Origin: Gammaproteobacteria bacterium
GTDB lineage: Bacteria > Pseudomonadota > Gammaproteobacteria > Pseudomonadales > Azotimanducaceae
Reading direction: 5' to 3'
Length of the DNA: 64,000 nt
NCBI GenBank assembly: GCA_018656865.1
Contig: JABHYO010000142.1
Coordinates: forward strand, 1 to 64,000
Made by a program: the position numbers and the translations under genes. The notes beneath the pieces were generated by a model that worked only from the letters and a program-made list of their open reading frames with translations, was not told where the DNA came from and searched no databases. Below, piece after piece: positions 36,680 to 58,754 of this stretch; the stretch's first letter is position 1; every line of letters starts with the position of its first letter.

Positions 36680-37816
36680 ATTCTTCGGATTGATCGCGCA
36701 AATAAGACTCATTGGCTGAATGTTGGGATTTTCCTTCTTTTTTCGCATGTGGATCTATGGGCTGAAGAAACGAGTTTTCAACTGTCGCTGCCTGTGGGAT
36801 TGGATGCCAGTGAACTTATCGTGCCAGCGGAAAATCCAATAACCGCAAGCAAGGTGGAGCTGGGTCGTACATTATTTTTCGATCCAAGACTTTCTTATGA
36901 TGGCACTGTTTCCTGTGCGACCTGTCATTCACCCCAGCTGGCATTTACCGACAATCGACCGGTTTCAATCGGTATCTACTCACAATTGGGAACCAGGAAT
37001 GCGCCAACGATAATCAACAGGGTTTTTTCTTCAGATCAGTTCTGGGATGGTCGTGATGACTCCCTGGAAGATCAGGCGATCGGCCCCCTGGTAAACCCGA
37101 AGGAAATGGGTATGCCAAGTTTTGAATCTGTTACCAGCAAGGTGCAGGGCATTACCGGTTATCGCGAATGGTTCAAGGAGGTCTTCAAAAGGGATGTCAA
37201 CATCAAGGATATCGGGAAAGCGATAGCCAGTTTTGAACGGACCCTGGTCTCTGGCAATTCTCCTTTTGATCAATTCAAGGCGGGTGATACCAATGCTATC
37301 AGCGAATCAGCCAGGCGGGGGTTTGACCTCTTCGAAGGCAAGGCAAGATGCAACCAATGCCATTCAGGTTCTCTGTTTACTGATGAAAAATATCATAACT
37401 TGGGCGTTGACTGGGATACGGATACGGTTGATCTCGGTCGCTACAAAGTAACGGGAAGAGCTGATGAAATAGGAGCCTTCAAGACGCCAACGCTGCGAGA
37501 GATAGCTCTCACCGGGCCCTATATGCACGATGGCTCCCAGGCGACACTTGAGGATACTATTGAGTTCTATGACAATGGTGGCATCGCCAATCCGTTTCTT
37601 GATATTGAAATGAGGCGTCCCGCCAGAACGCTGGAGGAGACGCTGGCCTTTTTTGAAGACAGCAGAAATAGAACTGAGGAACCGCAGACAGGTACGGATC
37701 TGGCCAAATTGGAACTGAGTGAACAGGAACGCGCTGACCTGGTTAGCTTCCTTGAGACATTAAGTGGCGAAGGTTGGCAACATGCTCGGCCACCGACCAG
37801 TTTTCCAGAGCAATGA
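36680..37816 (+). CDS. Di-heme cytochrome c peroxidase / MauG-like protein (start uncertain; ORF track gives GTG 36749)
   Basis: CATCH and CNQCH heme motifs; TPTLREIALTGPYMHDGSQATLEDTIEFYD. The frame is open upstream and encodes a signal peptide-like segment (NKTHWLNVGIFLLFSHVDLWAEE) absent from the GTG-start model. Confidence 0.85.
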   Translation: MLRIDRANKTHWLNVGIFLLFSHVDLWAEETSFQLSLPVGLDASELIVPAENPITASKVELGRTLFFDPRLSYDGTVSCATCHSPQLAFTDNRPVSIGIYSQLGTRNAPTIINRVFSSDQFWDGRDDSLEDQAIGPLVNPKEMGMPSFESVTSKVQGITGYREWFKEVFKRDVNIKDIGKAIASFERTLVSGNSPFDQFKAGDTNAISESARRGFDLFEGKARCNQCHSGSLFTDEKYHNLGVDWDTDTVDLGRYKVTGRADEIGAFKTPTLREIALTGPYMHDGSQATLEDTIEFYDNGGIANPFLDIEMRRPARTLEETLAFFEDSRNRTEEPQTGTDLAKLELSEQERADLVSFLETLSGEGWQHARPPTSFPEQ

Positions 37817-38437: not shown

Positions 38438-39115
38438 ATGACCAGGTCGAATTCCAAGATTCTGTCTGTTGCGAGTCTTGTCGTTGTTGTACTTGCTCTC
38501 GTGATTCTGGCGAGCCAAAGGATGCAGGAGAGCGAACCGGTTCAGCAAATTCCAGAGTCGCTTGCGGAGAATCTTTTCTGGGATCCCGTGCAGATGACTT
38601 CTTTCACGCTGGTGGATTTTGATAATCAGCAATATGGCGTTGATCAGTTGGAAGATCAGTGGACGTTTGTATTCTTTGGCTACACGTTTTGCCCGGATAT
38701 CTGCCCGGTGACACTCGCCAATCTCGCGGCCATGTTCCGTAAGCTGGAGTCGGCATCTTTTCCCATGGCGGATGTGCGTGTGCTATTCGTCTCGGTGGAC
38801 CCTGAGAGAGATACCCAGGAAGTATTAAAGGGTTATGTCCCCTATTTTGATCCCCGCTTCCTGGGCGTCAGTGGAAGTAAATCACAGCTTGATGGGTTTA
38901 CGCGCCAGTTAGGTGCTCTTTACTATGTTGACGAAGACTCCCCGGAGGCCCACTACACCGTCAGTCACAACTCATCTGTGTTCCTGATCGACCCGCAGGC
39001 AAGGCAATATGCACGATTTGCGGCACCACACGATCCAGATCAAATGAGTGATGCCTTCATCAGAATCGTCGAGTATTACGAATCTCTCCAGGTCGCAAAG
39101 ACATCCTGGTTCTGA
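38438..39115 (+). CDS. SCO1/SenC family copper-binding protein
   Basis: FFGYTFCPDICPVTLANL CxxxC; SVDPERDT; conserved His in YTVSHNSSVFLID. Confidence 0.93.
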   Translation: MTRSNSKILSVASLVVVVLALVILASQRMQESEPVQQIPESLAENLFWDPVQMTSFTLVDFDNQQYGVDQLEDQWTFVFFGYTFCPDICPVTLANLAAMFRKLESASFPMADVRVLFVSVDPERDTQEVLKGYVPYFDPRFLGVSGSKSQLDGFTRQLGALYYVDEDSPEAHYTVSHNSSVFLIDPQARQYARFAAPHDPDQMSDAFIRIVEYYESLQVAKTSWF

Positions 39116-39162: not shown

Positions 39163-39176
39163 ATGATCTAGGTCAA
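39163..39176 (+). promoter_or_regulatory. FNR/DNR-family (anaerobic/NO regulator) binding-site-like palindrome
   Basis: ATGATCTAGGTCAA; 8 of 10 half-site bases match TTGAT-N4-[AG]TCAA allowing only A at the degenerate position (9 of 10 if G is allowed); TATAAG at 39199-39204 places the centre at -41.5. Confidence 0.6.
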
Positions 39177-39306: not shown

Positions 39307-41058
39307 ATGAACGTCAATCACTCAGTCAAGCTTATGCTTGTGTCTCTTTTGGCACTACTCGGCTTGGTATCAACAACTGCGACCGCGGAAGATGCCATTC
39401 CAAATTGGCAATTTGCGGAGCAGGAATCCAAGGACGCACCGTTAATTGATCCCATGTTGCTGTACAACGCGGGAGGCCTCGATGGCAAGGTGGCAGTCAT
39501 TGGTATTCCGAGCATGCGGACCTACCGACATATTGATGTCGGTGTCGATCTCCATGAACCGGTTTTCAGTGGAACTAATGCTGGAAACAAGAATGGTACG
39601 CCGGATGGTAAGCATCTGTATGTAAATGACAAAGGCGCCAATACCATTGGTGTTATTAATTTGCAGACAGGCATGCTTGAACGTCTGATTGCACTGCCAT
39701 TTCCATTCGGTGTTCACCATATCGCTCTGGATGAGAAAGGGGAGTTTCTGTACGGCAGTGGTGAATACTCCGGCAAGATGTCCAAAACTGAAATTTCCAC
39801 CGGTAAAACACAGGTGATTGATTGGGGGCCAGCGCCTAGCGCCCCTGACTATTTGGATGTAGATAAGACCGGCAAGTATGTTTTTTCTGGCAACTACTAC
39901 CATTCTACCGTCGGTGTGTTTTCAACCAACCCATTCAAATACATCAAGGAAATCCCTGTGGGTAAGAACCCCCACGGTACGGACGTAGTTCCTGATAATA
40001 GTATGGTACTGGTCAGTGACAAGTTGTCGGCAACCATGACGGTTATTGATGTCGAAAAGCTGGCTGTTAAGAAGGTGCTACCAACCTGCGCGGGCCCGCT
40101 GCACTCGGTGATGGACGTCTACGACAAGGATGGTGGAACCTATGAGCCTGGTAAGGACAGCCCGGAAGGTTTGACTTCCAAGTATGCCTACGAAAGCTGC
40201 TTTGTCTCCGACTCGAACGTAAAGATCGACTTGAAGACTCTTGAAGTTGTGGATGAAATTCCTACCCATTATCGAACCGGGCATATTGCCATCAGTTCTG
40301 ACAACAGTTATGTCTTTGCGTTGAATAAATTTTCAACCGGATTGTTCAGCCCGACGGGTGTCGTCTATCCAGTGAATTTTGAGATGTGGGATGCGCGGGA
40401 GTCTTCCCCCACCTATGGCAAGACGCTGAAGATAACACCAGTTGATGGTGAGCCGCATAATGCGAAGTCCATTCATGCTTATCAGATAAAACGATGGAAT
40501 ATGGGCCAGGCAGAAAAGGGTGGGCTTGTTTCAGGTCTTACTCCGGTGCTAGATCCTGCTCACAGGGCCAAAGCCAGGCGTTTTCTTCTTCCAAAATCGA
40601 ATGAGAAACCCGGTATCCGTATGGTCGATGGCGTGAAAGAAATTCACGTAAAGGCTTTCAGTTACGGTTATATCCCCAGAAATATCCGCGTTAATAAAGG
40701 TGACAAGGTTAGGTTGTTTGTCACCAATATTGATCGAGCTGCCGGTATTACGAAAAACCCGGATGTGACGATGGGATTGACCATCTATGGGCCTTATGGC
40801 CTTCGAACCAATCTTGCAGCACCAAGAGGAGTTACAGCGGTCACTGAATTTGAAGCTGATATTGCCGGTGAATATGCCATTTTCTGTCAACACTTCTGCG
40901 GTCCGCTTCACCTCGAAATGCGTGGTTCCTTCTTTGTAGATGACCCTGCCGTAGGCGACTCAAATCTTTCTGTCGGTGACTATGATGCCGCACAAAGATT
41001 GCCTGGGCTGGTTGAAGAAGGGGAACTGGAAGTCGCTGAAAGAGTGGATAGCTTTTAG
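39307..41058 (+). CDS. Divergent nitrous-oxide-reductase (NosZ)-like protein: N-terminal beta-propeller plus C-terminal CuA-type cupredoxin, Sec-type signal peptide
   Basis: GKVAVIGIPSMR, DGKHLYVNDKGANTIGVI, IPVGKNPHGTDVVPD, GPLHSVMD, EPHNA align with NosZ propeller motifs recalled from memory; C-terminal CQHFCGPLHLEM is a Cx3Cx3Hx2M CuA motif. Substitutions at other ligand positions (see findings). Confidence 0.8.
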   Translation: MNVNHSVKLMLVSLLALLGLVSTTATAEDAIPNWQFAEQESKDAPLIDPMLLYNAGGLDGKVAVIGIPSMRTYRHIDVGVDLHEPVFSGTNAGNKNGTPDGKHLYVNDKGANTIGVINLQTGMLERLIALPFPFGVHHIALDEKGEFLYGSGEYSGKMSKTEISTGKTQVIDWGPAPSAPDYLDVDKTGKYVFSGNYYHSTVGVFSTNPFKYIKEIPVGKNPHGTDVVPDNSMVLVSDKLSATMTVIDVEKLAVKKVLPTCAGPLHSVMDVYDKDGGTYEPGKDSPEGLTSKYAYESCFVSDSNVKIDLKTLEVVDEIPTHYRTGHIAISSDNSYVFALNKFSTGLFSPTGVVYPVNFEMWDARESSPTYGKTLKITPVDGEPHNAKSIHAYQIKRWNMGQAEKGGLVSGLTPVLDPAHRAKARRFLLPKSNEKPGIRMVDGVKEIHVKAFSYGYIPRNIRVNKGDKVRLFVTNIDRAAGITKNPDVTMGLTIYGPYGLRTNLAAPRGVTAVTEFEADIAGEYAIFCQHFCGPLHLEMRGSFFVDDPAVGDSNLSVGDYDAAQRLPGLVEEGELEVAERVDSF

Positions 41059-41060
41059 TT

Positions 41061-41519
41061 TTGACTGTTCTGAAGTGGTCTCTGCCGTGTGTACTGGCCC
41101 TGCTGGTTGCATGCGGCGGTAATACGCAAAACTTGCCAGAGGAAGGGCCTGATGTCGTCGCTGCTCGCTTCTATGAATACATTTCAGAAGCGAAGCAGAG
41201 AGGAGGCGCTGCCCCGGCTCGTGAAGCGTTTAAGCTGATTAATTCAAGTACTGCGAACATTAACCAACACCAGTTTGTTGAGATCATCAAGGAGTATCCA
41301 CCGGGTTTCCGTGTTGAATTGACTGGGACGGAGATCAACGACAACAAGGCTCTGGTGCAGATAGAGTATGAGATGTCGTCTGATTTTGGTGCGTATAAGG
41401 TCAATAGCGAAGTTGCTCTGGACCTTGATCCATTGACGAACAGTTGGGTGGTTGATTTTACCGGTGAAAATTTTGGTATTGGACGAAGTGATTTGATTGG
41501 TGCTGAAGGTGGAGGGTGA
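41061..41519 (+). CDS. Predicted lipoprotein of unknown function
   Basis: TTG start; lipobox LLVACGG; DUF4878/NTF2-like feel. Confidence 0.6.
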   Translation: MTVLKWSLPCVLALLVACGGNTQNLPEEGPDVVAARFYEYISEAKQRGGAAPAREAFKLINSSTANINQHQFVEIIKEYPPGFRVELTGTEINDNKALVQIEYEMSSDFGAYKVNSEVALDLDPLTNSWVVDFTGENFGIGRSDLIGAEGGG

Positions 41520-42136
41520 TGTTGCAGGGGTTGATTGAATCAATCAGGGAACGAACGGCTGCTCAAATGGAGAAGCCGGTTCCGTCGCATATGAATGTAT
41601 TCAATTGCTTCGGTGGTATCTCCCTGTTGCTTATTCTGCTTCAGCTCGTTACCGGCGTTGTGATGCTGTTCTACTTCATACCAGAACCCGATAAGGCCCT
41701 GTTAAGTATCGAGGCGATGAGTAATGAGGTTCGCGGAGGATGGCTGCTTCGTGACGGGCATCGTTGGGGTTCGACAATACTACTGGCTTTTGTATTTTCT
41801 CACATGGTTGCCGTGTTCTATTTCAAGGCCTATCAAAGTCCGCGTCAGTTAACCTGGACCTCCGGCGTTGTGCAAATGACCATAGTCTTTTTGCTGGTGA
41901 CGACCGGTATTCTTTTGCCATGGGATTGGCGTGCTTATTGGGCTTATGCCCTCTGGATGGATTACATCGCCACCTGGCCGTTGATTGGGGATTATCTCAA
42001 AGAAGCTGCACTCGGTACGTTCACGCTGAACCGGGTCTTCTATACACATGTGCTATTTCTTCCCTTGCTGCTTGGTGGATTCTTACTGTTTCATTTCAGA
42101 ATGGTAAGAAAGTACGGCATCAAGGAACCTTTATAG
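41516..42136 (+). CDS. Cytochrome b N-terminal (b6-like) subunit
   Basis: About 4 TM; two His pairs HRWGSTILLAFVFSH and HVLFLPLLLGGFLLFH for bis-heme b; GILLPWDWRAYWAY. Confidence 0.9.
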   Translation: MMLQGLIESIRERTAAQMEKPVPSHMNVFNCFGGISLLLILLQLVTGVVMLFYFIPEPDKALLSIEAMSNEVRGGWLLRDGHRWGSTILLAFVFSHMVAVFYFKAYQSPRQLTWTSGVVQMTIVFLLVTTGILLPWDWRAYWAYALWMDYIATWPLIGDYLKEAALGTFTLNRVFYTHVLFLPLLLGGFLLFHFRMVRKYGIKEPL

Positions 42137-42144
42137 GGTATCGG

Positions 42145-42825
42145 ATGATGGCAGACAACAAGCGGAGAATAAGAAGGGAGCCTAAGTATGATCCTCCCTA
42201 CCCGCAGGAGTTTTATGCGTTCTGGCCAGGCCATGTGCTCAGAGCGTTCATACTCCTTGTTGTCATTTATGCTGCAGTTTTTGTTCTCGCCGCATTGTAT
42301 CGGGTACCAATGGACCCGAATATGCCGCCTATGCCAGACGAGGGTGTCAATATTCCTGCACCTGAATGGTATCTCTTTCTGTTCTTCCAACCGTTCTGGT
42401 ATCTGACCGGCGAGGACGCCAAGTGGATGTCTTTAGGTACCTTCTGGGCACCTTTTGCCATTCTTATTGCTCTGTTTCTGGTGCCAGTGTTTTTTGGCAA
42501 GAAGAAAGTGCGACAACCGATGGCTGGATGGCAGAAGGCGATTTTTGCCCTGGTTGCGGCAGGAATTTGGGGTGTGTCCGGGTTGGCTGTAGTGGGCAGC
42601 GGTTATCCAGCGAAGACAACCGGTTGTTCATCCTGTCATAACCCCATGATGGGAGTCCGGCAAGCCCTGCCTCCTGTCACCATGGGTGAATACTACAAGG
42701 TTGAGCGTCAGCGGCAGATTGAACTGGGTGGCTACAGGATAGGCGATACCTCAGGTTATGGTGGGTCCTATAAGGACGCTAACTGGCAATTACGCCATTT
42801 CTACGAACCGACGATGACCTGGTGA
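42145..42825 (+). CDS. Cytochrome b C-terminal (subunit IV-like) domain fused to a C-terminal c-type heme motif
   Basis: PAPEWYLFLFFQPFWYL (PEWY), about 3-4 TM, CSSCHNPMMG; start is internal ATG 42145. Confidence 0.85.
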   Translation: MMADNKRRIRREPKYDPPYPQEFYAFWPGHVLRAFILLVVIYAAVFVLAALYRVPMDPNMPPMPDEGVNIPAPEWYLFLFFQPFWYLTGEDAKWMSLGTFWAPFAILIALFLVPVFFGKKKVRQPMAGWQKAIFALVAAGIWGVSGLAVVGSGYPAKTTGCSSCHNPMMGVRQALPPVTMGEYYKVERQRQIELGGYRIGDTSGYGGSYKDANWQLRHFYEPTMTW

Positions 42826-42828
42826 TAT

Positions 42829-44022
42829 ATGGGTACATTTAGGTTCCTCATAGTCCTGATCGCTTTCCAGTCGCTGGTGCCAGCCCTGGTGCGTGCAGCG
42901 GGTGTCGAAGCATTATCGCCGATTACGGAATATCCACTTCCGGAATCCTTGAGTTCCCCTTACGCCATCGAATTGGATGCCAGCAGTAGAGTCTGGTTTA
43001 CGGAAAAGGTCGGTCAACACCTTGCCATGTTCGATCCGAAGGACGAACAGTTCAGGGTACACAAACTTCCTGAATCGTGGGGCAAGGTCGGTCCGGCGCA
43101 ACTTGCCATTACTGATGCAGGTGAAATCTGGTTCACCATTCATCGTTGGGCTGAGGATGCTGCTCAGACCAATGTGTTAGGAAAATTCTCGCCGTCAACG
43201 AATAGCTTCACCCGGTACGAAATTTCACTGGATGCATCACCCCAGGAAATAGTGATCGGTGAGCAGGGCATGTTGTGGCTGGTTGCTGCTGACAGAAATC
43301 AACTGTTGAAAGTGGATGCTGGGACGGGAAAAGTCGTGAGTTATCAAATTCCGACACCGGACAGTAATCCCCAGGGACTAACTATCGATCATAAAGGTGA
43401 CGTTTGGTTCAGTGAACCTAACGTCAACAAAATCGGCAGGTTCTCGCCGAATGATGGCTATTTTAAGGAATTTGATATCCCCACTGCTTTTGCCAATCCC
43501 GGAAGTATGGCCGTGGATGTTGAGGGCAAGGTCTGGTTTGTCGAACGATCCTCGAATCGACTCGGCGTACTGTATCCGGATTTGAATCGCTTCGATGAGG
43601 CGCTTATCCCAACCCTCAATGCCTTACCTCATGCCATAGACGCAGATGGCCAGGGCAGACTGTGGTTCCTGGAGTATCGTGGCAACAAGGTTGGTGTGTT
43701 TGATCCCCAATCAGCGACATTCAATGAATTTGATATCCCAAGATATAACAGCTTTCCCGGCGAGATGGTCATCGATCACGAACAGAACTTGATCTGGTTC
43801 ACCGAAAGCAATGCGGAAAGCAGTCAGTTGGGTGTGCTGTCCATTGGGCTGGCCGGCCTCCCGTCGAAAAGCGGGCAAATGGATGACATCGCCGAGGCGA
43901 CAAAGACGGTAAGCAACGGAGTTGCAAATGATTATCTGGTGCCTGTGGTTGGACTTGTTCTGCTGACAATCCTCCTGGGTACAGGTGTTTGGGCAACGAC
44001 CAGATCCGGGGAGGTTGGCTGA
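42829..44022 (+). CDS. Virginiamycin B lyase (Vgb)-like beta-propeller protein with C-terminal TM anchor
   Basis: Repeated xxVWFTE..xNKIGRFSPxxxxFxEFDIP blades; C-terminal VPVVGLVLLTILLGTGVWATTR. Confidence 0.85.
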   Translation: MGTFRFLIVLIAFQSLVPALVRAAGVEALSPITEYPLPESLSSPYAIELDASSRVWFTEKVGQHLAMFDPKDEQFRVHKLPESWGKVGPAQLAITDAGEIWFTIHRWAEDAAQTNVLGKFSPSTNSFTRYEISLDASPQEIVIGEQGMLWLVAADRNQLLKVDAGTGKVVSYQIPTPDSNPQGLTIDHKGDVWFSEPNVNKIGRFSPNDGYFKEFDIPTAFANPGSMAVDVEGKVWFVERSSNRLGVLYPDLNRFDEALIPTLNALPHAIDADGQGRLWFLEYRGNKVGVFDPQSATFNEFDIPRYNSFPGEMVIDHEQNLIWFTESNAESSQLGVLSIGLAGLPSKSGQMDDIAEATKTVSNGVANDYLVPVVGLVLLTILLGTGVWATTRSGEVG

Positions 44023-44023
44023 C

Positions 44024-45049
44024 ATGAAGGCTCGCCGTCCGGTGACACAAGGTAGGAAGGTCGCATTAAGCCTGCTGAGTATTGCACTGCTATTGATGGG
44101 GTATTCATCCTTTGCGGTCCAGACTACGCAGCTCTATACCATCCCAACGGCCTACTCAGCGACATCGAGGATAGTGTCATCGAAAGACGATATCTGGTTT
44201 GTAGAGTTCAATAGCAACAAGATCGGTTTTTTCAACAAGACCAACCATGAATTCAGTGAATTTGATATTCCCACAAAGAGCAGTTATCCATCTGACATCA
44301 CGGTGGGAGTGGGCGGTTTGCTTTGGTACACGCAACAGGATGCCAATCAACTAGGCAGCTTCAATCCTATTACCAAAACTTTCAAGGAATACGATATTCC
44401 CACAATTGAAAGTTTACCCTTGAGATTGGCGACGGATAGACAGGGTGATCTATGGATCACGGAACACTACGGCAACCGGCTGGCTCATTTTGACGTGCGT
44501 AGTGAGACCTTTACTGAATATGAGATTCCAACACCTTCCAGCAGGCCGACAGGAATTGCGGTAGATGCGCAGGGAAGAGTGTGGTTTCTGGAAACCCAGG
44601 GCAACAAGCTTGGATTTCTTGACCCTGACGAGGGGTCATTTTTTGAGATTTCATTGCCAGAATCATTCGAGGTGCCGATTGATCTTACGATCGATCGCGA
44701 GGGTGTCATCTGGTTTGGCGGGAGACGAAGTGGCAAGTTGATTGCCTACGATCCTGCCCGGAAGGAATTTGATATACACCGTATTCCAGGTGGTGGGGTC
44801 ATTGCCGGATTGGCCGTTGATGAAACGGGCAGGATTGTGTTCGCATTGGAAAATCCAGGAAAGATTGGATTATTTGACCCTAAAACACGGGAATTTCGGG
44901 TAGTGAAGGCGGTTCTGGAAGACAGTGAACCGTACGATATTGATGCAGACGAAGAAGGCAACATCTGGTTTGCGGATATGAAGAGTAATGCACTATGTAG
45001 GTTAGATGGTCAGGTAATGTCTTTAGCCGTTACCTTAAATCAAGAGTAA
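44024..45049 (+). CDS. Second Vgb-like beta-propeller protein (tandem paralogue)
   Basis: Same IWFVEFNSNKIGFFNK..FSEFDIP blade repeat; ATG 44024 abuts the upstream stop. Confidence 0.85.
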   Translation: MKARRPVTQGRKVALSLLSIALLLMGYSSFAVQTTQLYTIPTAYSATSRIVSSKDDIWFVEFNSNKIGFFNKTNHEFSEFDIPTKSSYPSDITVGVGGLLWYTQQDANQLGSFNPITKTFKEYDIPTIESLPLRLATDRQGDLWITEHYGNRLAHFDVRSETFTEYEIPTPSSRPTGIAVDAQGRVWFLETQGNKLGFLDPDEGSFFEISLPESFEVPIDLTIDREGVIWFGGRRSGKLIAYDPARKEFDIHRIPGGGVIAGLAVDETGRIVFALENPGKIGLFDPKTREFRVVKAVLEDSEPYDIDADEEGNIWFADMKSNALCRLDGQVMSLAVTLNQE

Positions 45050-45077: not shown

Positions 45078-46025
45078 ATGAAGAGTTATTCGAAAGTGTT
45101 TCTGCAAACCTTAACGATGAGTATTGCCGTGTTATTGGCAAGCTCTCAATTGTTTGCAGCTGAAAAAAGATGCACCGCTCAAGGGAAGAAAGTTGAGTGT
45201 CCGGTCCAGAGTGACAAGGCGTTACTGGCCGCGCAGGAAGCTTATGAAAAGGAAGCCACTGATATGGCTGAAGGCAAGGCCGGTAGCACCTATGGTATTG
45301 CACCCTTTGATTATCTGACCGGTGTCGGAAAGCGAACGGAAGGTACGACGCTCTCTGAAGGTGATAGTGGTTACGGTGATTCGTCTACAGGCCGTACGGA
45401 GCTCTGGGACCGGGTTGCCAACGCTAGCGAAGGAGAAGCTATCTACAATCAGTGGACGAACAACTGGTCACCCAGTTTTGATGAAACACTGGTAGCTGGT
45501 GCGGACCCCAATGAAGGTAAGCAATGGTATTACGTCTACTGCATTACCTGTCATGGTTGGACGCTTCAAGGTGATGGGCCGAGTGCTTTGGCGATAGACC
45601 CAAAACCCAGGATTCTGACAGCTGGCAATAAGTACATGAACCAGAAGACGAATCTTGAGCTGTTTACCGCGATTAAGGGTGGTGGTGAAGCAGTTAGTCT
45701 GTCTTCTTCGATGCCTGCCTGGGGTAATTTCCTCATGGATCAGGATATCTGGAACATCGTTGCCTGGATTCGTGCCATGTCAGATGTTGGCCAGCCAAAA
45801 TCCATTGAAGAATACCTGAATCCAAAATCTTCATATCAGATGTCGGCAAGCGACGTGAATCCTCTCAATGTCAAAGAGAATGAGGATTTTCTTGATGCAC
45901 AGGAGATGATGGAAATTGATCTCGGTGGTAGAGGAGGCGGGGCCCTGGTTGGTGGCGGTTATGTCGAAGGCGGATTGCGTAAAAAGCCTGAAGATGTGGC
46001 AGATAAGGTCGGCAAGAAGTACTAG
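45078..46025 (+). CDS. Monoheme c-type cytochrome (periplasmic)
   Basis: Signal peptide; YCITCHGW; possible axial Met in SSSMPAWGNFLMDQDIWNIVAWIRAM. Confidence 0.88.
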   Translation: MKSYSKVFLQTLTMSIAVLLASSQLFAAEKRCTAQGKKVECPVQSDKALLAAQEAYEKEATDMAEGKAGSTYGIAPFDYLTGVGKRTEGTTLSEGDSGYGDSSTGRTELWDRVANASEGEAIYNQWTNNWSPSFDETLVAGADPNEGKQWYYVYCITCHGWTLQGDGPSALAIDPKPRILTAGNKYMNQKTNLELFTAIKGGGEAVSLSSSMPAWGNFLMDQDIWNIVAWIRAMSDVGQPKSIEEYLNPKSSYQMSASDVNPLNVKENEDFLDAQEMMEIDLGGRGGGALVGGGYVEGGLRKKPEDVADKVGKKY

Positions 46026-46073: not shown

Positions 46074-46142
46074 CGATTGTTTGTCTAACATTTGTGATAC
46101 TTGTTAGGAAGAATAGCTCTATCTAATGGTGGCCGCAAAGTT

Positions 46143-46649
46143 ATGAAGAACACTGCAATCGTTATTGGTGTTCTGTTTTTGTTGACTGTCACCGCTTCGG
46201 GCGTAATGGTTTATGCGCCGATTGAGAAGATCAGCCAGAAGGTAAAGTCCGAAGGTTATCTTCCGTACACCACTGACGAGGCTGTGTCACTGGCCTATGA
46301 ACGGTGTGGTACATGCCACGACGTGGACAAGGTTCTGCTTTACTGTTCGCGTTGTGGACCCCCATTTATTGTTACAATCCACTTCATGAAAAAATACATC
46401 GAGCTGGCAAATCTCGATGGCGGTCGCCTCGAACCTCTCACGGACGCCGAAGCTGTTGCCATATCCCAGGTGTGGAACGGGCTGATTGGGAATTGGGAGG
46501 GAGACTGGAGAGTTCAGGATATGAGGAAGTTACTTGGCAGTGATCAAGCGCTCATTGATTTGTTGGAGACACCTGTTGCAGACAGACCGATCGAGCTTTC
46601 GCTGGCGGATAAGGCAGCCCCCGGATCCTATAAAGAACAGACTCAGTAG
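46143..46649 (+). CDS. Membrane-anchored or periplasmic cytochrome c-like protein with an additional CxxC
   Basis: N-terminal TM/signal; CGTCHDVDKVLLYCSRCGPP. Confidence 0.75.
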   Translation: MKNTAIVIGVLFLLTVTASGVMVYAPIEKISQKVKSEGYLPYTTDEAVSLAYERCGTCHDVDKVLLYCSRCGPPFIVTIHFMKKYIELANLDGGRLEPLTDAEAVAISQVWNGLIGNWEGDWRVQDMRKLLGSDQALIDLLETPVADRPIELSLADKAAPGSYKEQTQ

Positions 46650-46661
46650 ACTTCGGTAAAC

Positions 46662-47600
46662 ATGATTACCGTAGAAAAGCTCGTAAAAGATTATGGTAGC
46701 CATCGGGCTATTGATGACATTTCTTTCTCTATGGAAGAGGGTGAAATTCTCGGATTTCTTGGTCCCAACGGGGCCGGGAAGACAACCATGATGCGTATTC
46801 TCACCTGCTGCATGCCTTCGACCAGCGGTCGTGCAACGGTAGCGGGTTTCGATTGTCTGGAAGATCCTCTGGAAGTTCGGAGAAGGATTGGGTATCTGCC
46901 TGAACGGGTACCGCTTTATGACGATATGCGGGTTTCAGACTATCTGGCTTTCGTAGCGGGTATGAAAGGTATGGCTAGCGACCTCATCTCTCAAAGTGTG
47001 AAGCGGACGGCAGAAGATTGCGGTCTTGATGATGTCTATGATCGTCGTATAAGCAACATTTCAAGAGGGTACAGACAAAGGGTGGGGCTTGCTCAGGCGC
47101 TGTTAAATGACCCCGAAGTGTTGATTCTGGATGAACCCACCGTGGGGCTGGACCCGGGTCAGATCAAAGAAATTCGGGGACTGATCAAGAATCTTTCCGA
47201 CAGGCATACGATAATATTGAGTACACACATCCTGCCGGAAGTCAGTCTGCTCTGCAGCAAAGTGGTCATTATCAATCAGGGAAAATTGGTCGCCATGGAT
47301 ACGCCGGAAAACCTGAGTGCTCAGGTGGATGATTCATCCAGGTTGATGTTGAGACTCGGTGGCCCTGTCGATCAGGTGGAAGAAGCCCTGGGTCGGGTTC
47401 CAGGGGTGATCAACGTTCAACGTGAAGAAAGTCCTGACTCGGATTCAAACGCCTTTTCCCTGGATTTTGCAGCAGGGCAGAATGCTCGTAAGGATCTGCA
47501 ATTATTGATTGCTGAAAAAGGCTGGGATTTGATGGAAATGCGAAACCTCTCTGCGAGTCTTGAGGATGTCTTTATCAAACTGGTTACCAGGGAAGACTAG
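46662..47600 (+). CDS. ABC transporter ATP-binding protein (NosF/GldA-like)
   Basis: GPNGAGKTTMMRIL, ISRGYRQRVGLAQAL, VLILDEPTVGLDP. Confidence 0.9.
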   Translation: MITVEKLVKDYGSHRAIDDISFSMEEGEILGFLGPNGAGKTTMMRILTCCMPSTSGRATVAGFDCLEDPLEVRRRIGYLPERVPLYDDMRVSDYLAFVAGMKGMASDLISQSVKRTAEDCGLDDVYDRRISNISRGYRQRVGLAQALLNDPEVLILDEPTVGLDPGQIKEIRGLIKNLSDRHTIILSTHILPEVSLLCSKVVIINQGKLVAMDTPENLSAQVDDSSRLMLRLGGPVDQVEEALGRVPGVINVQREESPDSDSNAFSLDFAAGQNARKDLQLLIAEKGWDLMEMRNLSASLEDVFIKLVTRED

Positions 47601-47611: not shown

Positions 47612-48391
47612 ATGAATATCAGAAGTATTGGGCTGATCTATCGAAGAGAACTTGGCAGCTACTTCAGCTCTCATATTGCCTACGTCGTTATTGCGGTGTT
47701 TCTGCTGGTTACGGGATATTTTTTTTATAACCTGCTGGCATCCTTTTCAGTCATCAGTTTTCAGGCACAAACTAATGCCATGCTGGCTCGCCAGGCCAAC
47801 CTGCTTAATATCAATGAAACTGTGGTCAGGCCCCTGTTTGGAAATATCAGCATCGTGATGTTGTTGATGACGCCTTTTCTGACAATGCGCTTGATAGCAG
47901 AAGAGCGTAAGTCACGCACACTGGAGTTACTACGAAGTTATCCTGTCAGTGATATTGATGTCATATTGGCCAAGTACTTTGCCTGCATGACGGTTTTGCT
48001 GGCCATGATCCTGCCCACTTTGATTTATCCAATCTTCCTGGTGACCCTGGGAGATCCAGAGGTCATGCCGATTGCGACAGGTTATCTTGGGCTAATTCTC
48101 CTAGGTGGTACATTTATCGCGGTTGGATTGTTTGCTTCGTCCATTACAGAAAATCAGATAGTCGCTGCATCGGTGTCCTTTGGCCTTCTGTTCTGCTTCT
48201 GGTTGCTGAGTTACTCGGTAGCATTCGTATCAGCTGGATTTGGCAGATTCCTGACCTATATCGCCATTAACGAACATCTTGAGAGCCTGGCAAAAGGGGT
48301 GCTTGATTCCGAGGACATCATCTACTACCTGGGTTTGATTGCGTTGTTCCTCTTTCTCTCGCTCCGAAGTATGGAGTCAAAGCAGTGGTAG
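47612..48391 (+). CDS. ABC transporter permease (NosY/GldF-like)
   Basis: About 6 TM; RLIAEERKSRTLELLRSYPVSDIDVILAKY. Confidence 0.88.
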   Translation: MNIRSIGLIYRRELGSYFSSHIAYVVIAVFLLVTGYFFYNLLASFSVISFQAQTNAMLARQANLLNINETVVRPLFGNISIVMLLMTPFLTMRLIAEERKSRTLELLRSYPVSDIDVILAKYFACMTVLLAMILPTLIYPIFLVTLGDPEVMPIATGYLGLILLGGTFIAVGLFASSITENQIVAASVSFGLLFCFWLLSYSVAFVSAGFGRFLTYIAINEHLESLAKGVLDSEDIIYYLGLIALFLFLSLRSMESKQW

Positions 48392-49965
48392 ATTCTGCTG
48401 GCAAGGGTAAGTATCGGATGTTGAGCGGTATCCTGGGCGTTGTACTTGCTGCTGCGGGCGGAATTGTCTTCGCAATCAGTGGTCAGCTTGGCAATCTATC
48501 CCTGGCGCTAATCTGGGCAGGGGTGCTTCTGCTTACGTATTTCGTCTACACACAACTTGATCTGATTCGGGGATTTGTAGGCAAGCGTTCAACTTTCTAT
48601 GGTGCCAATACCCTGGTGATGACCATCGTCTTTCTGGTTCTTCTGGTGTTAGCTGCCTATATGTCGGTTCGTCATAAGGTCAGGATAGACTTAACCGAAA
48701 CTGGTCGATATACCCTGGCCCCGCAGACTGTTAAGACCTTGCGTTCGCTGCCTTCTGATATTGAGGTTATTGCATTTTATCGCAGTGATGAGCGTACCCG
48801 TCAGGCCATGGCGGATTTGCTTAAAGAATATTCATACTACTCGCCAAGCTTCAAGTTTCGTTTCATTGATCCTGATCAGAGTCCGTTGGAAGCAGCAGAA
48901 TATGGTGTCACTTCATACAGGACGACATTGATCAGACATGAAGGCAAGCAGGAAGTGGTCAGCTTCGAATCGGAAAATAAGCTGACTAATGCTCTGCTCA
49001 AGGTGCTGCGAAAAGAGACTAAACGAATCTATTTCGTTAAGGGGCATGGTGAAAACAGCCTTGCCAGTACTGAGAATGTTGGTTATGCCGCAGTGAAGGA
49101 GGCCCTTGAAAAAGAGCATCACGAGGTGCGTGATCTATTGCTGATTGGGTCGGATGGTGTGCCTGAAGATGCAGCTGTTGTCGTTGTTGCGGGTGCGAAA
49201 ACGGCGCTTCTACCCGGAGAGCTGGAGATGCTGACAGACTATTTGCGCCAGGGTGGTAGAGCACTTTTTATGCTGGACCCTGGTGACGCTCCTCAGTTTG
49301 CTCGGTACTTACAGGAATTTGGATTCAGTGTTGGCGAAGATATTGTTATCGATCAACTCAGTAAGGTCTTTGGGGGAAACTACCTGACACCTGTCGTCTC
49401 AGAATACTTCAAGGACCATCCAATTACCGCTGAATTTGATCTGGCGACCTTCTTTCCAATGGCTCAAACAGTATCCATAGAAGAGGATGGTTCCACGGGT
49501 AGCCAGAACCTTGCCAAAACCAGTAATAGCAGCTGGGCGAAAAGGTCCGGTATTCTGGATGAAAACAACCTCGATTTTGATCAAGCCACGGGTGTTGCTG
49601 GTCCGCTTAACATCATTTCTGTGACGTCGATTCCCGTTGATGAAGACCTGCCTGATGGAACTAAACAGACAGATAATCCTGATCTTAAGAAGTGGGGCAA
49701 GGTGGTGGTCATTGGTGATTCCAATTTCGTCAGCAATGCCTATATTCAGATGGCAGGTAATCGCGACCTGTTTCTAAATGTTGTCGATTGGCTGGCGGAA
49801 GAACATCTCCTTATCTCCATTCGTAAAAAGGCACCGGGGCTCTCACCCATTACAATGACAGCAGTCGAGGGTCGGATGGTTTTCTGGGTCTGTGTCATCA
49901 TTTTCCCTTCACTGGCATTGATCCTGGGTTTTGCTGTTATTGCTCGCAATAGGGCTCAGGATTGA
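48385..49965 (+). CDS. GldG-like ABC-associated protein
   Basis: N-terminal TMs, RIDLTETGRYTLAPQTVKTLRSL, VVVAGAKTALLPGELEMLTDYLRQGGRALFMLDP, C-terminal TM. Confidence 0.85.
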   Translation: MVDSAGKGKYRMLSGILGVVLAAAGGIVFAISGQLGNLSLALIWAGVLLLTYFVYTQLDLIRGFVGKRSTFYGANTLVMTIVFLVLLVLAAYMSVRHKVRIDLTETGRYTLAPQTVKTLRSLPSDIEVIAFYRSDERTRQAMADLLKEYSYYSPSFKFRFIDPDQSPLEAAEYGVTSYRTTLIRHEGKQEVVSFESENKLTNALLKVLRKETKRIYFVKGHGENSLASTENVGYAAVKEALEKEHHEVRDLLLIGSDGVPEDAAVVVVAGAKTALLPGELEMLTDYLRQGGRALFMLDPGDAPQFARYLQEFGFSVGEDIVIDQLSKVFGGNYLTPVVSEYFKDHPITAEFDLATFFPMAQTVSIEEDGSTGSQNLAKTSNSSWAKRSGILDENNLDFDQATGVAGPLNIISVTSIPVDEDLPDGTKQTDNPDLKKWGKVVVIGDSNFVSNAYIQMAGNRDLFLNVVDWLAEEHLLISIRKKAPGLSPITMTAVEGRMVFWVCVIIFPSLALILGFAVIARNRAQD

Positions 49966-50996
49966 ACTCCACCAGGAAAACTCTCTTCTGGCTGATTACC
50001 CTTCTGCTGGTGGCTGGCGGATTCTACGTTCTCGATCAGCAGGTTGCAGAACAAGACAGGATTACCGAAGAGAATCTGAGACTGTTTCACTTCACACCGG
50101 ATGATGTCGAAGAGTTCTGGATAGCGGGTAAAGAAGATGGCCTGAGAGTGAAAGTTCATCGTCGCGACGGAGAGTGGTGGTTGAAGTTTCCCATCGTTGC
50201 CAGGGGGGATGATTCGAAGATTGATTCATTGCTGACCAACGTCGTGGTGTCACGCAAAGACCGCACTCTGTTTGAAGAGGCTGATGCCGGCAAGATGCAG
50301 GAATTGGGTCTCGATACCCCCTCTATTGAAATGACATTTATTACCTCAGGAGTTACCGAACATGCCAGCGGTACTCCAACGTCGAATGACGCGGTAAATA
50401 CCGCTGTGGTGGAGCGTAGTCCATCGAAAGTAGAGACGACAATATTCTTTGGGGATTCAGGCCCGACGAACAACGTAGCCTATGCCATGTTGTCTAAAGA
50501 TTCTCGAGTCTTCCGTATCCACTCCGATGTGAGAACCGAAGCCGACAGATCTGTCTACGATCTGCGTGACAAATCGCTGTTGTCCTTTGACCCGCTGAAA
50601 CTACTAACGGTGGATATAACTCGCCGGGACCTGCCGCATCTGGTTATAGAGCATGACAATGGCCGTTGGAACATGCTTGAGCCGTCGGTGGCCAGGGCTT
50701 CCCAGCAGAATGTGCTGGAAGGTCTGTTTATGATTAAGGACGATGAAATTAAGGCATTCCTGGGTGGCGATCTTGAGAATAAGCAGGCCTATGGGTTAGA
50801 TGCCCCAAGAATCCGCATTTCTATAAAAGATCAGCAAAGAGATGAGCCCTACGTGCTGATTATTGGCGATAAGGACAGAAGCAGGCGAGGGTACTTTGCT
50901 CTGACTAATCGAAGCGAAGAAGTGCTGGTAGTAACCGAAGATCTTGTCAATTACTTGCTTTCAATCAAGGACAGTTGGCAGGAAATCCCATCATAA
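49962..50996 (+). CDS. DUF4340-like protein
   Basis: N-terminal TM, repeated FTPDDVEEFWIAGKEDGLRVKVHRRDGEWWL-type units; follows GldG. Confidence 0.75.
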   Translation: MNSTRKTLFWLITLLLVAGGFYVLDQQVAEQDRITEENLRLFHFTPDDVEEFWIAGKEDGLRVKVHRRDGEWWLKFPIVARGDDSKIDSLLTNVVVSRKDRTLFEEADAGKMQELGLDTPSIEMTFITSGVTEHASGTPTSNDAVNTAVVERSPSKVETTIFFGDSGPTNNVAYAMLSKDSRVFRIHSDVRTEADRSVYDLRDKSLLSFDPLKLLTVDITRRDLPHLVIEHDNGRWNMLEPSVARASQQNVLEGLFMIKDDEIKAFLGGDLENKQAYGLDAPRIRISIKDQQRDEPYVLIIGDKDRSRRGYFALTNRSEEVLVVTEDLVNYLLSIKDSWQEIPS

Positions 50997-51002
50997 TTGG
51001 CC

Positions 51003-52274: not shown

Positions 52275-53375
52275 ATGAAACGTTTTCATTTCAGATATTA
52301 CTTCGGTGGCATCGCCCTGATTCTTCTTGTGCTCCAGTTGATAACGGGGATTTTTTTAACCATGTACTATGAGCCGAATCTCAGGGAAGCCTATGCCAGT
52401 GTGCAGGCTCTTTACCAGGATTCCTTTCTTCATAGCTGGATGCGGGATTCTCATCGCTGGCTGGCGTTTTTCATCGTTACGTCGGTGGTTGTGCACTTTT
52501 TCAGGAGTCTGCTCAGAAAGGATTATCTTCGTCCCAGGAAGAGAGTCTCCTGGCTGACTGGGATGCTGTTGATTCTGGTAATTCTCTTCATCTCTGTTAC
52601 CGGATTTATCCTGCCCTGGGAATGGAAGGGCTACTGGTTCATGGAGATGGTCCCTAACCTGGCGGGAGAGTTGCCATTTATTGGTGAGCCGTTAAAGAAC
52701 GGGCTGATCAGTTTCTTCACGCTGAATCGTGTTTTTGTTGCACATATTCTTCTGCTTCCTCTGGTTTCGATCATTCTCATCGACATTCACGTTTTCGGTC
52801 ATCTTAGAAATCGCAAAGGAGGTATCCCTCGCTATTTGATGATGCATGGTTTGATAACCCTGCCGGTAATCGTCGTGGTCGCTGTGTTGGCGGCAACAGT
52901 CCAGATGCCAACTTCGGATCCGGACATTATCCCTCTGCCTCTTGAAGGGCGATTTGTTCCAACCATCGAATGGTATGTGCTGATTTTCTATGTGCCTTTT
53001 ATGTACTTCGAGAACTGGATCGGGCCAACCCTGGGGTTGTATCTGCCTGGCGTCCTGTTTTTGCTATTGGCTGCGGCACCGTTTTTCTTGCGCCGTAAAC
53101 CTCTGGAGGAGCGCAAGAAGTCAAAGCTTTCACCAACCATGAAGAAGGTTGCCGCCTTCGTCGTGGTGACTTCTATTTGCTCGGTCTTCTTTGGTTCGGT
53201 CTATACCGCTGGTTACAGATCACCGACGATGGGGTGCAACTCGTGCCACAATATCTATATGGGTAGACGTATGGGCGTGCCACCCGATGACTTCAGAGAC
53301 AGAGAGAAACTTCCTCTTCTGGATGACAATCAATGGATGGTAGAGCACTGGTTTGCGCCTCAGCAAACCTGGTAG
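52275..53375 (+). CDS. Fused full-length cytochrome b with C-terminal c-type heme motif
   Basis: His pairs HRWLAFFIVTSVVVH and HILLLPLVSIILIDIH, TIEWY in place of PEWY, CNSCHNIYMG. Confidence 0.88.
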   Translation: MKRFHFRYYFGGIALILLVLQLITGIFLTMYYEPNLREAYASVQALYQDSFLHSWMRDSHRWLAFFIVTSVVVHFFRSLLRKDYLRPRKRVSWLTGMLLILVILFISVTGFILPWEWKGYWFMEMVPNLAGELPFIGEPLKNGLISFFTLNRVFVAHILLLPLVSIILIDIHVFGHLRNRKGGIPRYLMMHGLITLPVIVVVAVLAATVQMPTSDPDIIPLPLEGRFVPTIEWYVLIFYVPFMYFENWIGPTLGLYLPGVLFLLLAAAPFFLRRKPLEERKKSKLSPTMKKVAAFVVVTSICSVFFGSVYTAGYRSPTMGCNSCHNIYMGRRMGVPPDDFRDREKLPLLDDNQWMVEHWFAPQQTW

Positions 53376-53829: not shown

Positions 53830-54510
53830 CTAGACCAGGAAGCCGAGGAAAAACGCCTTGTAATAAACCATGACGCCGGTGATGTTCATCAGCGCCAGAA
53901 CACCGAGAAACGCACCGCAGATATTTCTTAAAACTGATCGATATTTTTCGCTCAGGTATCTCAAGCTCAATACCAGCAACATACCGACGAAAGAAAAGGA
54001 TAAAGCCATACCGAGCCCGTAGATCCAGGCAAGGAATGCACCCTGTTTCGCCGTCTGGGGATCGATGCCTATTTGCAGTATTTTCGCGTAGGTCGGTGTC
54101 ACGCAGGGCGAGTAGATGACTGCGAACGACAGGCCCAGCAGCAGGGCACAGCCACCATATACAATTGATCGCAATAGTCTGCCATTGATGGACAAGCTGT
54201 GCCCGAAAATCAGGTGAAGGCTGATGAGTCCTATGACGACACCAGCAGCGATTCTCAGCCCATTGATATGAGATAAAAGGACCCGGCCCGCATCAATCCC
54301 TCTGGAACTGAGAAGCGCATAGATAACACTGAAACCGATTGCGTAGGCAGCGCAGGAGAGTAGTTCCTGCCATTCACCTCTCTTCCGGTCATCAATGAGT
54401 CGAATACCGACAAGGTAGGCCAGAAAGAAGGGGCTGATCTGGAGGATGCAGACCTGCCAGATGGAAAAAAACGATGAAAAACCACCCCAGAGTGCGGTGA
54501 ACCATCCCAC
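53830..54510 (-). CDS. CcdA/DsbD-like cytochrome c biogenesis transmembrane protein
   Basis: 6-TM layout, GLSFAVIYSPCVTPTYAKILQI with conserved Cys-Val-Thr-Pro. Confidence 0.8.
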   Translation of the reverse strand: MGWFTALWGGFSSFFSIWQVCILQISPFFLAYLVGIRLIDDRKRGEWQELLSCAAYAIGFSVIYALLSSRGIDAGRVLLSHINGLRIAAGVVIGLISLHLIFGHSLSINGRLLRSIVYGGCALLLGLSFAVIYSPCVTPTYAKILQIGIDPQTAKQGAFLAWIYGLGMALSFSFVGMLLVLSLRYLSEKYRSVLRNICGAFLGVLALMNITGVMVYYKAFFLGFLV

Positions 54511-55013
54511 TAAAGAATCTCCTCAACCCATGTATAGACGTGTGATTCCATATCTTTGATGTTGCCGTAGAAAATCCTGCGCAGCGTGCCGTTCTTGTCA
54601 ATGAAGACTGTGGTGGGTGGTGAATTAATACCGTAGGTGCGGGCGATCCTGTCCCCATCATCGTATGCGGCGGGGAATGGCAGGTCATGACCGGTAACGA
54701 ACTTTCTGAACTTGCTCTCCGGGTCCTGTATTCCAATCATCAGTACATCAACACCCTGTTGCTCGTACTTTGTATGTATTTGCTTTAAGAGTGGAATGGA
54801 TTCGTTTGAGCAGGGACACCAGGAAGACATAAACGTGATCGCCTTGGCATTACCCGGTTGACCATCGATGGTCATGGAACCGCCATCAAGAAGGGGAAGT
54901 TCAAAGGCAGGGGCCGGTTGGCCTATATTGGCTTGCATTTCAATGTCTTCAGCGCAACCCGTCAGAATTCCCAGGACAAACAGCGCTATCCACGGAAGTC
55001 TGTCAGGTTTCAT
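54510..55013 (-). CDS. TlpA-like redoxin lipoprotein with CPC motif
   Basis: Lipobox ILTGC; FMSSWCPCSNESIPLL; cis-Pro SPPTTVFIDKNG. Confidence 0.85.
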   Translation of the reverse strand: MKPDRLPWIALFVLGILTGCAEDIEMQANIGQPAPAFELPLLDGGSMTIDGQPGNAKAITFMSSWCPCSNESIPLLKQIHTKYEQQGVDVLMIGIQDPESKFRKFVTGHDLPFPAAYDDGDRIARTYGINSPPTTVFIDKNGTLRRIFYGNIKDMESHVYTWVEEIL

Positions 55014-55521
55014 GGTCGGCGCCAGAATCCAGCATCTTGTCAATTTCGTGTTCCATTAACCGTTCCGTAACTCCGCCGGCATGAAGGTAGCTGATCATCC
55101 CATTGCCATCAATAAAATAGGTTGTCGGCATACCATAAACACCGAAGGCGTCTTTGATTTCACCGGTGTCATCAAGGCCAGCAGGAAATGTGATTCCGTA
55201 TCGTTCTATAAACTCCAGTGCTTTGGCCTCGGTATCGTTTACCGCAACGCCGACAAACGCAACGCCGTCGCTCTTGTAGTCCTGATAAACCTGGTCCAGA
55301 ACCGGACTTTCCGCGCCGCAGGGAACACACCATGAGGCAAAGAAATTCACGACAACCGGTTTGCCTCTGTGGTTGCTCAATTTGAAATCACCACCTTCAA
55401 GCAAGGTCAGGTTGAAATCAGGCGCAGGTTCCAATGGTGTATCGGATGCAACACGAGAGGTTTCCTCGCTACACCCTGCTGTGAACAGCGCCAATACAAG
55501 AACCAGCAACAACTTGTTCAT
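55003..55521 (-). CDS. TlpA-like thioredoxin lipoprotein
   Basis: Lipobox FTAGC; FFASWCVPCGAESPVL; GMPTTYFIDGNG. Confidence 0.9.
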   Translation of the reverse strand: MNKLLLVLVLALFTAGCSEETSRVASDTPLEPAPDFNLTLLEGGDFKLSNHRGKPVVVNFFASWCVPCGAESPVLDQVYQDYKSDGVAFVGVAVNDTEAKALEFIERYGITFPAGLDDTGEIKDAFGVYGMPTTYFIDGNGMISYLHAGGVTERLMEHEIDKMLDSGADHET

Positions 55522-55531
55522 ATAACGCACT

Positions 55532-56377
55532 CTAAACATCGGTGTGATCCTCCTCTTGAGGAATGTAGTCGGGGACGGGCAGGTCCCAGAGGAAATAACG
55601 TTTTCTCATATGGGGAAGGCTGATCTCAATCTCTATTGCAGCAATTTTATCTGAATTGAGAGGCGGAAAACTAAGTAATCCCTGTCGATGGTGCTGTTGG
55701 CCATCATCATAGATCACCTGCCAGTTAGTCGCTTGTTGCTCATGGCCGTTCCCATCACGCAATATCGCCAATTCAGCCAGATCCCAGGGAGGAACAATAC
55801 CCTGGTGAGTATTGATATAGAGAACAAAGTGTTCACCAGGTGTCGGCTCAGATCCACCGACCGACCTTCCGGCGACAAGGTAAGGCAGCAATGCGGTATG
55901 CAGGGTGGGGATATAGATGAGATCCAGGTAGATGTCATCCTCACCGAAGTCAGATTTCCACAGGTGGCGTTTCAGAAACCTCATTGTCTGTTCGGGCAGA
56001 AATGTTGGTACGTTACTGAGAAAGTTGCGCTGAAGGTATTCCGTGATGCTCCCGGCTTCTGAAATACTCAAGTCAGCACGATCCTTGGTATTCATTCTGT
56101 CGACGACCCATTCCCACTCGACGGCGGTCCGGGGTTTGTTCTCGATGACGTCCGTGCTGTGGCATTTTCGTGTGCAGGTCGACAGGTAGAGAGTCTGTGT
56201 TTCCTGCGGTGATAGTTCATCAATCACCCCATGTCTGAATAAGAAGAGCTTTGCCGCAGTCGTAACGTATTGAGTCCTGCTGCCATTTCCCGGTTCAACT
56301 AAAATCAGAAACCCGGCAACCGTCAGCATGCCCACTAAGATGAGGAAGATACCGATACTGATGGTCAGAGGTTTCAA
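55532..56377 (-). CDS. Membrane-anchored protein with putative CX3CH heme c motif
   Basis: N-terminal TM; LYLSTCTRKCHSTDVIENKPRTAVEWEWVVDRM resembles monoheme cytochrome context. Confidence 0.65.
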   Translation of the reverse strand: MKPLTISIGIFLILVGMLTVAGFLILVEPGNGSRTQYVTTAAKLFLFRHGVIDELSPQETQTLYLSTCTRKCHSTDVIENKPRTAVEWEWVVDRMNTKDRADLSISEAGSITEYLQRNFLSNVPTFLPEQTMRFLKRHLWKSDFGEDDIYLDLIYIPTLHTALLPYLVAGRSVGGSEPTPGEHFVLYINTHQGIVPPWDLAELAILRDGNGHEQQATNWQVIYDDGQQHHRQGLLSFPPLNSDKIAAIEIEISLPHMRKRYFLWDLPVPDYIPQEEDHTDV

Positions 56378-56808
56378 TTACTCTTCCCGTCGGCAACAAC
56401 GCCTGACTGTGATGAAAACCGGCTTACGATGATATATATCGCCGCAAACAAAATAATCAGCCACGCGGCGATACCTGACCACAACATAGCCCAATCCATG
56501 GTGTCGAAACTTCTGGTGTACTGATAGATCTTTCCTTCTATCTTCTGTCGTGTTGTCAGGCGGGCGTCATCACCATAGGCGGATATAAAGTAATCCATGA
56601 TCTCCTGTTTGGTCATGCCTTTGTTAATCAGTTCGCCTATTTCATTTTTCCAGGTCAGGCCACAGGACATGTTGCAGTCCTGAAGTATCAGTGGGCACTG
56701 GCAGGGGCATGCCAGGTCCTTGGCGACTTCAGCGACAGTTAGTGCTTCGGCGTTGCTGGAAGCGATAAGGCATGCAGTGAGTACGAAGGCGGTCAGGGAT
56801 CGTGTCAT
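56374..56808 (-). CDS. CcmH/NrfF-like cytochrome c biogenesis protein
   Basis: Signal peptide; DLACPCQCPLILQDC; NKGMTKQEIMDYFISAYGD; C-terminal TM. Confidence 0.8.
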   Translation of the reverse strand: MTRSLTAFVLTACLIASSNAEALTVAEVAKDLACPCQCPLILQDCNMSCGLTWKNEIGELINKGMTKQEIMDYFISAYGDDARLTTRQKIEGKIYQYTRSFDTMDWAMLWSGIAAWLIILFAAIYIIVSRFSSQSGVVADGKSN

Positions 56809-57596
56809 ACGGCGGCGGCTCTTTTTCTTGATTTCAGTAACCAGAAGGTAATCACCATCACACCGCCGATACCTGTGCCAAATATCAGATAGAGAATTGT
56901 CCTGATGTTTCGCTGGGTCTCATAGGGTGAACTGAATACCTTTGGACCGCTCATTCGTGAATACTTGATATCCATTGACGGTTTCTGATCCTTCTTTGCG
57001 TATCCGATATCGAATACCTGTTCGCGACCAGTATCGAATTCATCGTAGGTATAGTGGTAGTGGGTTTCTTCACCTTCAACGTTCAATTGGCCATCGCCCG
57101 GGGAGATGTTGAATTCCGTCGATCTCAGTGGCTGTTGGATGTCGATTTCCAGCTTGTCGATCAAGTGGTTTGCCTTGATCCTGTAGCGAAAGGATCTTTT
57201 TTCAACGCTGACATCAAAGGGTGTGAAGTGAAAACTCAGATAGAAATTGGGATAGGGGAGATAGAGCTCTATCTCATCAAATTCGGTTGTTTGTCTGACG
57301 GAATATAGCTGGCAGAAATGCTGGCCTTCATGAGACAAACTGCAGGCGTCATTGATAATTGACCCTTTGGGTAGCAGAAAGGTGGTTTTGATAGGGAATG
57401 AGGTAACGTCCTCAAACCTGCCATCGTAGATTGCCAGCACACTCGGATCATCGTACTCGGGCCAGATGGAGACCTGCATCCTGCCGATGGACAGATTATC
57501 GGCACCGATGGCATAAGCTGACAGAGCTGTACAGACTATCGCAAAGCTCATCAATCTCCTGGTTAGCCCAGGCTTTTTGGGTTCTCTTGCTCTCAT
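56805..57596 (-). CDS. Exported, C-terminally anchored protein of unknown function
   Basis: Signal peptide after MRAREPKKPGLTRRL; C-terminal TM TILYLIFGTGIGGVMVITFWLLKSRKR. Confidence 0.6.
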   Translation of the reverse strand: MRAREPKKPGLTRRLMSFAIVCTALSAYAIGADNLSIGRMQVSIWPEYDDPSVLAIYDGRFEDVTSFPIKTTFLLPKGSIINDACSLSHEGQHFCQLYSVRQTTEFDEIELYLPYPNFYLSFHFTPFDVSVEKRSFRYRIKANHLIDKLEIDIQQPLRSTEFNISPGDGQLNVEGEETHYHYTYDEFDTGREQVFDIGYAKKDQKPSMDIKYSRMSGPKVFSSPYETQRNIRTILYLIFGTGIGGVMVITFWLLKSRKRAAAV

Positions 57597-57682
57597 TCTA
57601 ATACCCTCTGCTGGTTTTAGAGAGTAACAAGAATTCTTACCGGTTGCTGGTACCAGTTCTATGTCGTACGTCAATATTTGTA

Positions 57683-58740: not shown

Positions 58741-58754
58741 GACCTTGAGCCTTC

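Follow-up and report, generated by a model that had tools for sequence, protein, structure and literature searches.

A probable clade III nitrous oxide reductase and its conserved gene neighbourhood in a gammaproteobacterial genome

Introduction

Does the open reading frame at 39307-41058 (forward strand) of the window, the 64,000-nucleotide stretch of DNA analysed here, encode a nitrous oxide (N2O) reductase (NosZ), and if so, of which kind? A preliminary description, made from the sequence letters, had offered two readings: a lineage of N2O reductases that is distant and has a modified cluster, or a copper enzyme that is related but acts on another substrate. Whether the protein belonged to a NosZ lineage outside clades I and II had been left open. 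Clade III NosZ is a recently reported lactonase-type group (PMC13122619, PMC12569097). The family is credited to He et al. (2025, Nature 646:152-160, cited in PMC13274427), and N2O reduction has been reported for clade III proteins (He et al., 2025, through citations in PMC13274427 and PMC13122619). Judged from its sequence, the protein is very probably a periplasmic N2O reductase of this clade (L-NosZ). It is a genuine member of an already published family and, since that family was published in 2025, of a known kind.

Materials and methods

Family assignment was done with NCBIfam release 20.0, in which NF052460 is the equivalog model 'clade III lactonase-type nitrous-oxide reductase'. A scan of 85,462 genomes yielded 25 loci with relatives of L-NosZ. 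The tree was built from 22 clade III, 7 clade II and 29 clade I proteins; the 21 clade III entries other than the window protein were recovered with the window query or the family model.

Ligand positions were read from an alignment of 22 clade III, 7 clade II and 29 clade I NosZ proteins and are given in P. stutzeri numbering, with the residues of the window protein in one-letter code. Ligand names were taken from PMC11573801 (M. nauticus and P. stutzeri numbering), the titles of mutant entries in the PDB and general background. Residues were mapped directly, because the clade I entry L032 shares P. stutzeri numbering in its C-terminal half. AlphaFold2 was run on the full L-NosZ protein and on the propeller alone, using alignments of 20 similar sequences.

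Results

The reading frame starts with ATG and encodes 583 residues. NF052460 scored the protein at 804.6 bits (cut-off 700) and was covered over profile positions 1-480 of 480. The clade I model TIGR04244 and the clade II model TIGR04246 gave 122.5 and 173 bits, respectively, each below a cut-off of 625. When PDB chains were searched, N2O reductases were the top matches with phmmer (best E 3e-21, L-NosZ residues 207-545) and also in a profile search; in both, the match spans the propeller into the cupredoxin domain. The architecture, by homology, is a seven-bladed propeller followed by a cupredoxin domain. The leader is hydrophobic and resembles a Sec-type signal peptide; a twin-arginine motif was not seen by eye. 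The motifs PSMR, DGKHLYVNDK, NPHG, GPLH, EPH and, in the cupredoxin domain, CQHFCGPLHLEM were all found in NosZ order, as previously described. Pfam applied to the whole protein returned two families above cut-off, YNCE and Lactonase; the scores of nos_propeller and Cupredoxin_1 fell slightly short of it. The YncE/lactonase label that a generic pipeline had been expected to give was thus obtained.

The clade III members compared with the window protein were 74-89% identical to it. The protein has the architecture of that family in common with them, and no feature setting it apart was found among these members. A phylogeny with clade I and clade II NosZ, suggested as a check in the preliminary description, recovered clades I, II and III each as one group, with support of 100/100 for clade III. 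The window protein was grouped with L002 and L003, from gammaproteobacterial and Halieaceae metagenome-assembled genomes (MAGs), at 99/99. The branches between clades are long, so no order among the three is claimed. The family score and the separate clade in the tree bear out the first of the two readings, an N2O reductase lineage that is distant and has a modified cluster, and identify the lineage outside clades I and II as clade III.

All 25 loci came from MAGs, labelled (by class or lower names) as gamma-, alpha-, beta-, zeta- or 'deltaproteobacteria' or left unclassified. The distribution of L-NosZ is patchy: 98 relatives were searched, 60 of which share its genus or family, and none gave another match above the family cut-off; two carriers besides the window were present among 398 sampled genomes of the phylum. 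Canonical NosZ was encoded in 59 of 399 sampled genomes of the phylum. Viral contigs were scanned for more diverse L-NosZ or NosZ, and none was found.

Structure prediction gave mean pLDDT values of 43.8 (full protein) and 53.2 (propeller alone), a low confidence attributed to too few and too similar sequences. A Foldseek search with the weak propeller model returned N2O reductases first, with a TM-score of only about 0.28, and serves as a consistency check only.

At the CuZ site, His129, His178, His326, His382, His433 and His494 were aligned with H83, H137, H223, H266, H326 and H384, which are invariant in 22/22 clade III proteins and in clades I and II as well. Six of the seven CuZ histidines are therefore kept in the window protein, and His130 alone is replaced. 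The preliminary description was right that CuZ histidines are retained and had counted five of them. The pair H83-E84 (39553-39558, forward strand) is the counterpart of His129-His130. The change from the HH of DCHHPH to HE, noted earlier at these positions, is present; Glu is found in all 22 clade III proteins and HH in 36/36 canonical ones. In alignments with clade I only, HE was not placed opposite HH, and it was so placed once clade II was added; the assignment of His130 to Glu is good but alignment-dependent, because clade II had to be included. A second proposed ligand change, GHLH to GHIA near 40282, was rejected as a loss, since in GHxH it is the first His that serves as ligand. This His, the counterpart of His433, is retained as H326 (40282-40284, forward strand; alignment). 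Two residues further along, the aligned canonical enzymes themselves differ (N, S, M, L or H). Three further histidines, H75, H138 and H199, are invariant in clade III on the alignment and might contribute to the metal site.

At the CuA site, Cys618, Cys622, His626 and Met629 correspond to C527, C531, H535 and M538, which are invariant in all three clades and lie in the aligned loop C527-x3-C531-x3-H535-x2-M538 (CQHFCGPLHLEM; 40885-40920, forward strand). The position of Trp620, which supplies a backbone carbonyl at canonical CuA, is occupied by His529 in the window protein and by Glu in clade II. The remaining ligand position, His583, was aligned with M489 (40771-40773, forward strand), being Met in 22/22 clade III and His in 36/36 canonical proteins; this change was absent from the ligand list of the preliminary description. 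His583 of the P. stutzeri enzyme alternates between copper and Ser550, a movement proposed as the gate of electron transfer (PMC11573801). The Ser550 position is Ala in 21 of the 22 clade III proteins and Leu or Val in clade II; loss of this Ser is not in itself special to clade III, since clade II also lacks it. The conduit residues K454, E492 and F621 (PMC11573801) are intact in the aligned window protein.

L-NosZ lies in a forward-strand operon that is conserved across gamma-, alpha- and 'delta'-labelled MAGs. A SCO1/SenC copper chaperone is encoded upstream at 38438-39115 (PF02630, 2.3e-38), and SCO1 is also found 5' of L-NosZ in L002, L003, L010 and L023. Downstream follow a predicted lipoprotein of 152 residues (41061-41519; lipobox LVAC by eye, no Pfam match), a cytochrome b resembling the N-terminal part of b6 (41516-42136; PF00033, 3.7e-36), a cytochrome b subunit IV-like protein (by eye) with one CxxCH, CSSCH (42145-42825; no family match in Pfam or NCBIfam), and two Vgb-lyase-like propellers (42829-44022 and 43985-45049; PF24684, 3.7e-47 and 7.9e-48), all conserved in the operon. 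Next are a 315-residue cytochrome c with one CxxCH (45078-46025; PF13442) and a conserved 182-residue cytochrome c-like protein with one CxxCH, CGTCH (46101-46649). The forward-strand series continues with a GldA-like ABC transporter ATPase (46662-47600; TIGR03522, 4.8e-94, below cut-off), a GldF-like ABC permease (47612-48391; TIGR03518, 7.7e-49, below cut-off), a GldG-like ABC accessory protein (48385-49965; PF09822, 1.8e-24) and a DUF4340 protein (49962-50996; PF14238, 1.6e-26). A NosF/NosY label for the ABC genes was dropped, as a GldA/F/G-like module fits better.

The gene order that starts at L-NosZ and reaches at least the first c-type cytochrome was also found in L002, L003, L008, L009, L018, L021 and L026 (in the last, L-NosZ is truncated by the contig end) and was partly kept in L017. 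The constant pair in other loci is L-NosZ with the 315-residue cytochrome c, its most constant partner, which is near L-NosZ in nearly every locus with enough contig. On the reverse strand, 53830-57674 encodes DsbD-, ResA- and thioredoxin-like proteins, an unknown protein, a CcmH-like protein and another unknown protein (assigned with Pfam, which gave no match for the two unknowns). This cluster is probably a second accessory module of the L-NosZ system, because its homologues lie near L-NosZ in seven other loci (L004, L005, L006, L007, L018, L023 and L024).

Other genes of the window were recorded as well. A MauG/di-haem cytochrome c peroxidase-like gene (36749-37816, forward strand) lies directly upstream of SCO1, and no homologues of it were found in other L-NosZ loci. 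Another cytochrome b-like gene, carrying one CxxCH (52275-53375, forward strand) and 33-36% identical to the operon cytochrome b in homologous loci, is preceded on its 5' side by a periplasmic-binding-protein-like gene at 50997. Two adjoining genes at 57970-59630 (reverse strand) have a weak likeness to long-chain fatty aldehyde decarbonylase (PF11266).

An FNR/DNR-like box, ATGAT-CTAG-GTCAA (39163-39176, forward strand), with one mismatch to TTGAY-N4-RTCAA, was found 144 bp upstream of the L-NosZ start codon. Boxes free of mismatches occur 124-165 bp upstream of L-NosZ in L003, L008, L009, L011 and L024; a good box was not found upstream of L-NosZ in L002, L005, L017, L018 and others. One-mismatch boxes are not above chance across the whole window, and the weight of the box therefore rests on its similar position.

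Also encoded in the source genome (3.7 Mb, about 94% complete) are NirS, which matches solved cd1 nitrite reductases closely (E 1.1e-256), and NirJ. At that completeness, NosD, NosL and canonical NosZ were not found, and no NO reductase was identified. A 475-residue haem-copper oxidase subunit I-like protein with a weak COX1 match (L048, C154:4261-5445) gave no match in the PDB or NCBIfam; it may represent an atypical NO reductase or oxidase.

Discussion

Clade I enzymes (TIGR04244, TAT-dependent) resemble the window protein in fold (by homology), in six of the seven CuZ histidines, in the Cys/Cys/His/Met set at CuA and in K454, E492 and F621. They differ in sequence (about 27-29% identity over aligned columns), in the twin-arginine motif that was not seen by eye in the window protein, in having His130, His583 and Ser550 where the latter has Glu, Met and Ala, and in NosD and NosL, which were not found in the window genome. 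Clade II enzymes (TIGR04246, Sec-dependent) share the same retained CuZ and CuA ligands; unlike the window protein, they keep His130 and His583 (7/7), and their C-terminal extension is longer. Clade II operons encode cytochromes nearby, as does the window. Neither the copper-site substitutions nor the accessory set is specific to the window; both are common to the clade III sequences compared.

If it works as its homologues suggest, the window protein would carry copper and take N2O as its substrate. N2O would be bound on the propeller axis by a copper-sulfur CuZ-type cluster, held by the six histidines and possibly by Glu84. Electrons from the quinone pool would reach a CuA-type site in the cupredoxin domain by way of the b-type cytochrome of the operon and the c-type cytochromes, and would move on from there to the cluster; N2 and water would be the products. 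The reading is favoured by the family score, the tree, the conserved ligand and conduit residues, the cytochromes and SCO1 of the operon, the similar placing of FNR/DNR-like boxes in several loci, and NirS and NirJ in the genome. The replacement of His130 and His583 counts against it, as does the outcome that NosD, NosL and a NO reductase were not found in the about 94% complete assembly.

Three other explanations were weighed. Because two metal-ligand positions are changed, the protein might be a copper enzyme of NosZ fold and ancestry that acts on another substrate, for example a small nitrogen or sulfur compound. The invariant replacements of His130 by Glu and His583 by Met would fit this, as would an accessory set that is without NosD and NosL and includes Vgb-like propellers and a Gld-type ABC module. 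It is nevertheless unlikely: a score well above the equivalog cut-off and the close identity to the clade III members compared imply that the window protein shares the function of its family, for which N2O reduction is reported (cited in PMC13274427), and NirS in the genome provides a denitrification context. Taken at face value, the YNCE and Lactonase matches above the Pfam cut-off would make the protein a propeller of the YncE or lactonase type that lacks a copper cluster and is joined to a COX2-like cupredoxin of unrelated origin. This is highly improbable, since NosZ homology spans both domains: the NosZ profile match crosses from the propeller into the cupredoxin, and the six CuZ histidines, K454 and E492 are kept at NosZ positions. 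That L-NosZ is a non-working, recently acquired relic in this genome is barely credible; the patchy distribution (98 relatives without another match above the family cut-off, two further carriers among 398 genomes of the phylum) would suit a relic, but the frame is open, the family-invariant ligand residues are intact, and the whole operon is intact and conserved.

With the protein read as a clade III N2O reductase, a further idea can be offered tentatively, and is more readily doubted than accepted: that replacement of the His583 gate by a fixed Met, of His130 by Glu, and assembly free of NosD and NosL together represent a rebuilt electron entry and cluster. Perhaps the Glu at CuZ is helped by the invariant H138 or H199. 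If so, assembly would be by the two Vgb-like propellers, the Gld-type ABC module, SCO1 and the ResA-, DsbD- and CcmH-like proteins. Were this true, the His583 gate of canonical NosZ would be dispensable for N2O reduction.

Among the known biological sinks for N2O, a strong greenhouse gas, N2O reductase is the main one. When annotated with Pfam, clade III receives the wrong label, YncE or lactonase; since its members are sparse but spread over several proteobacterial classes, N2O sinks can thereby be overlooked. In clade III the CuA gate and one CuZ ligand are changed consistently, which offers a natural experiment on the copper-site features that are required, and it is in these clade III substitutions and the accessory set that the value of the finding lies.
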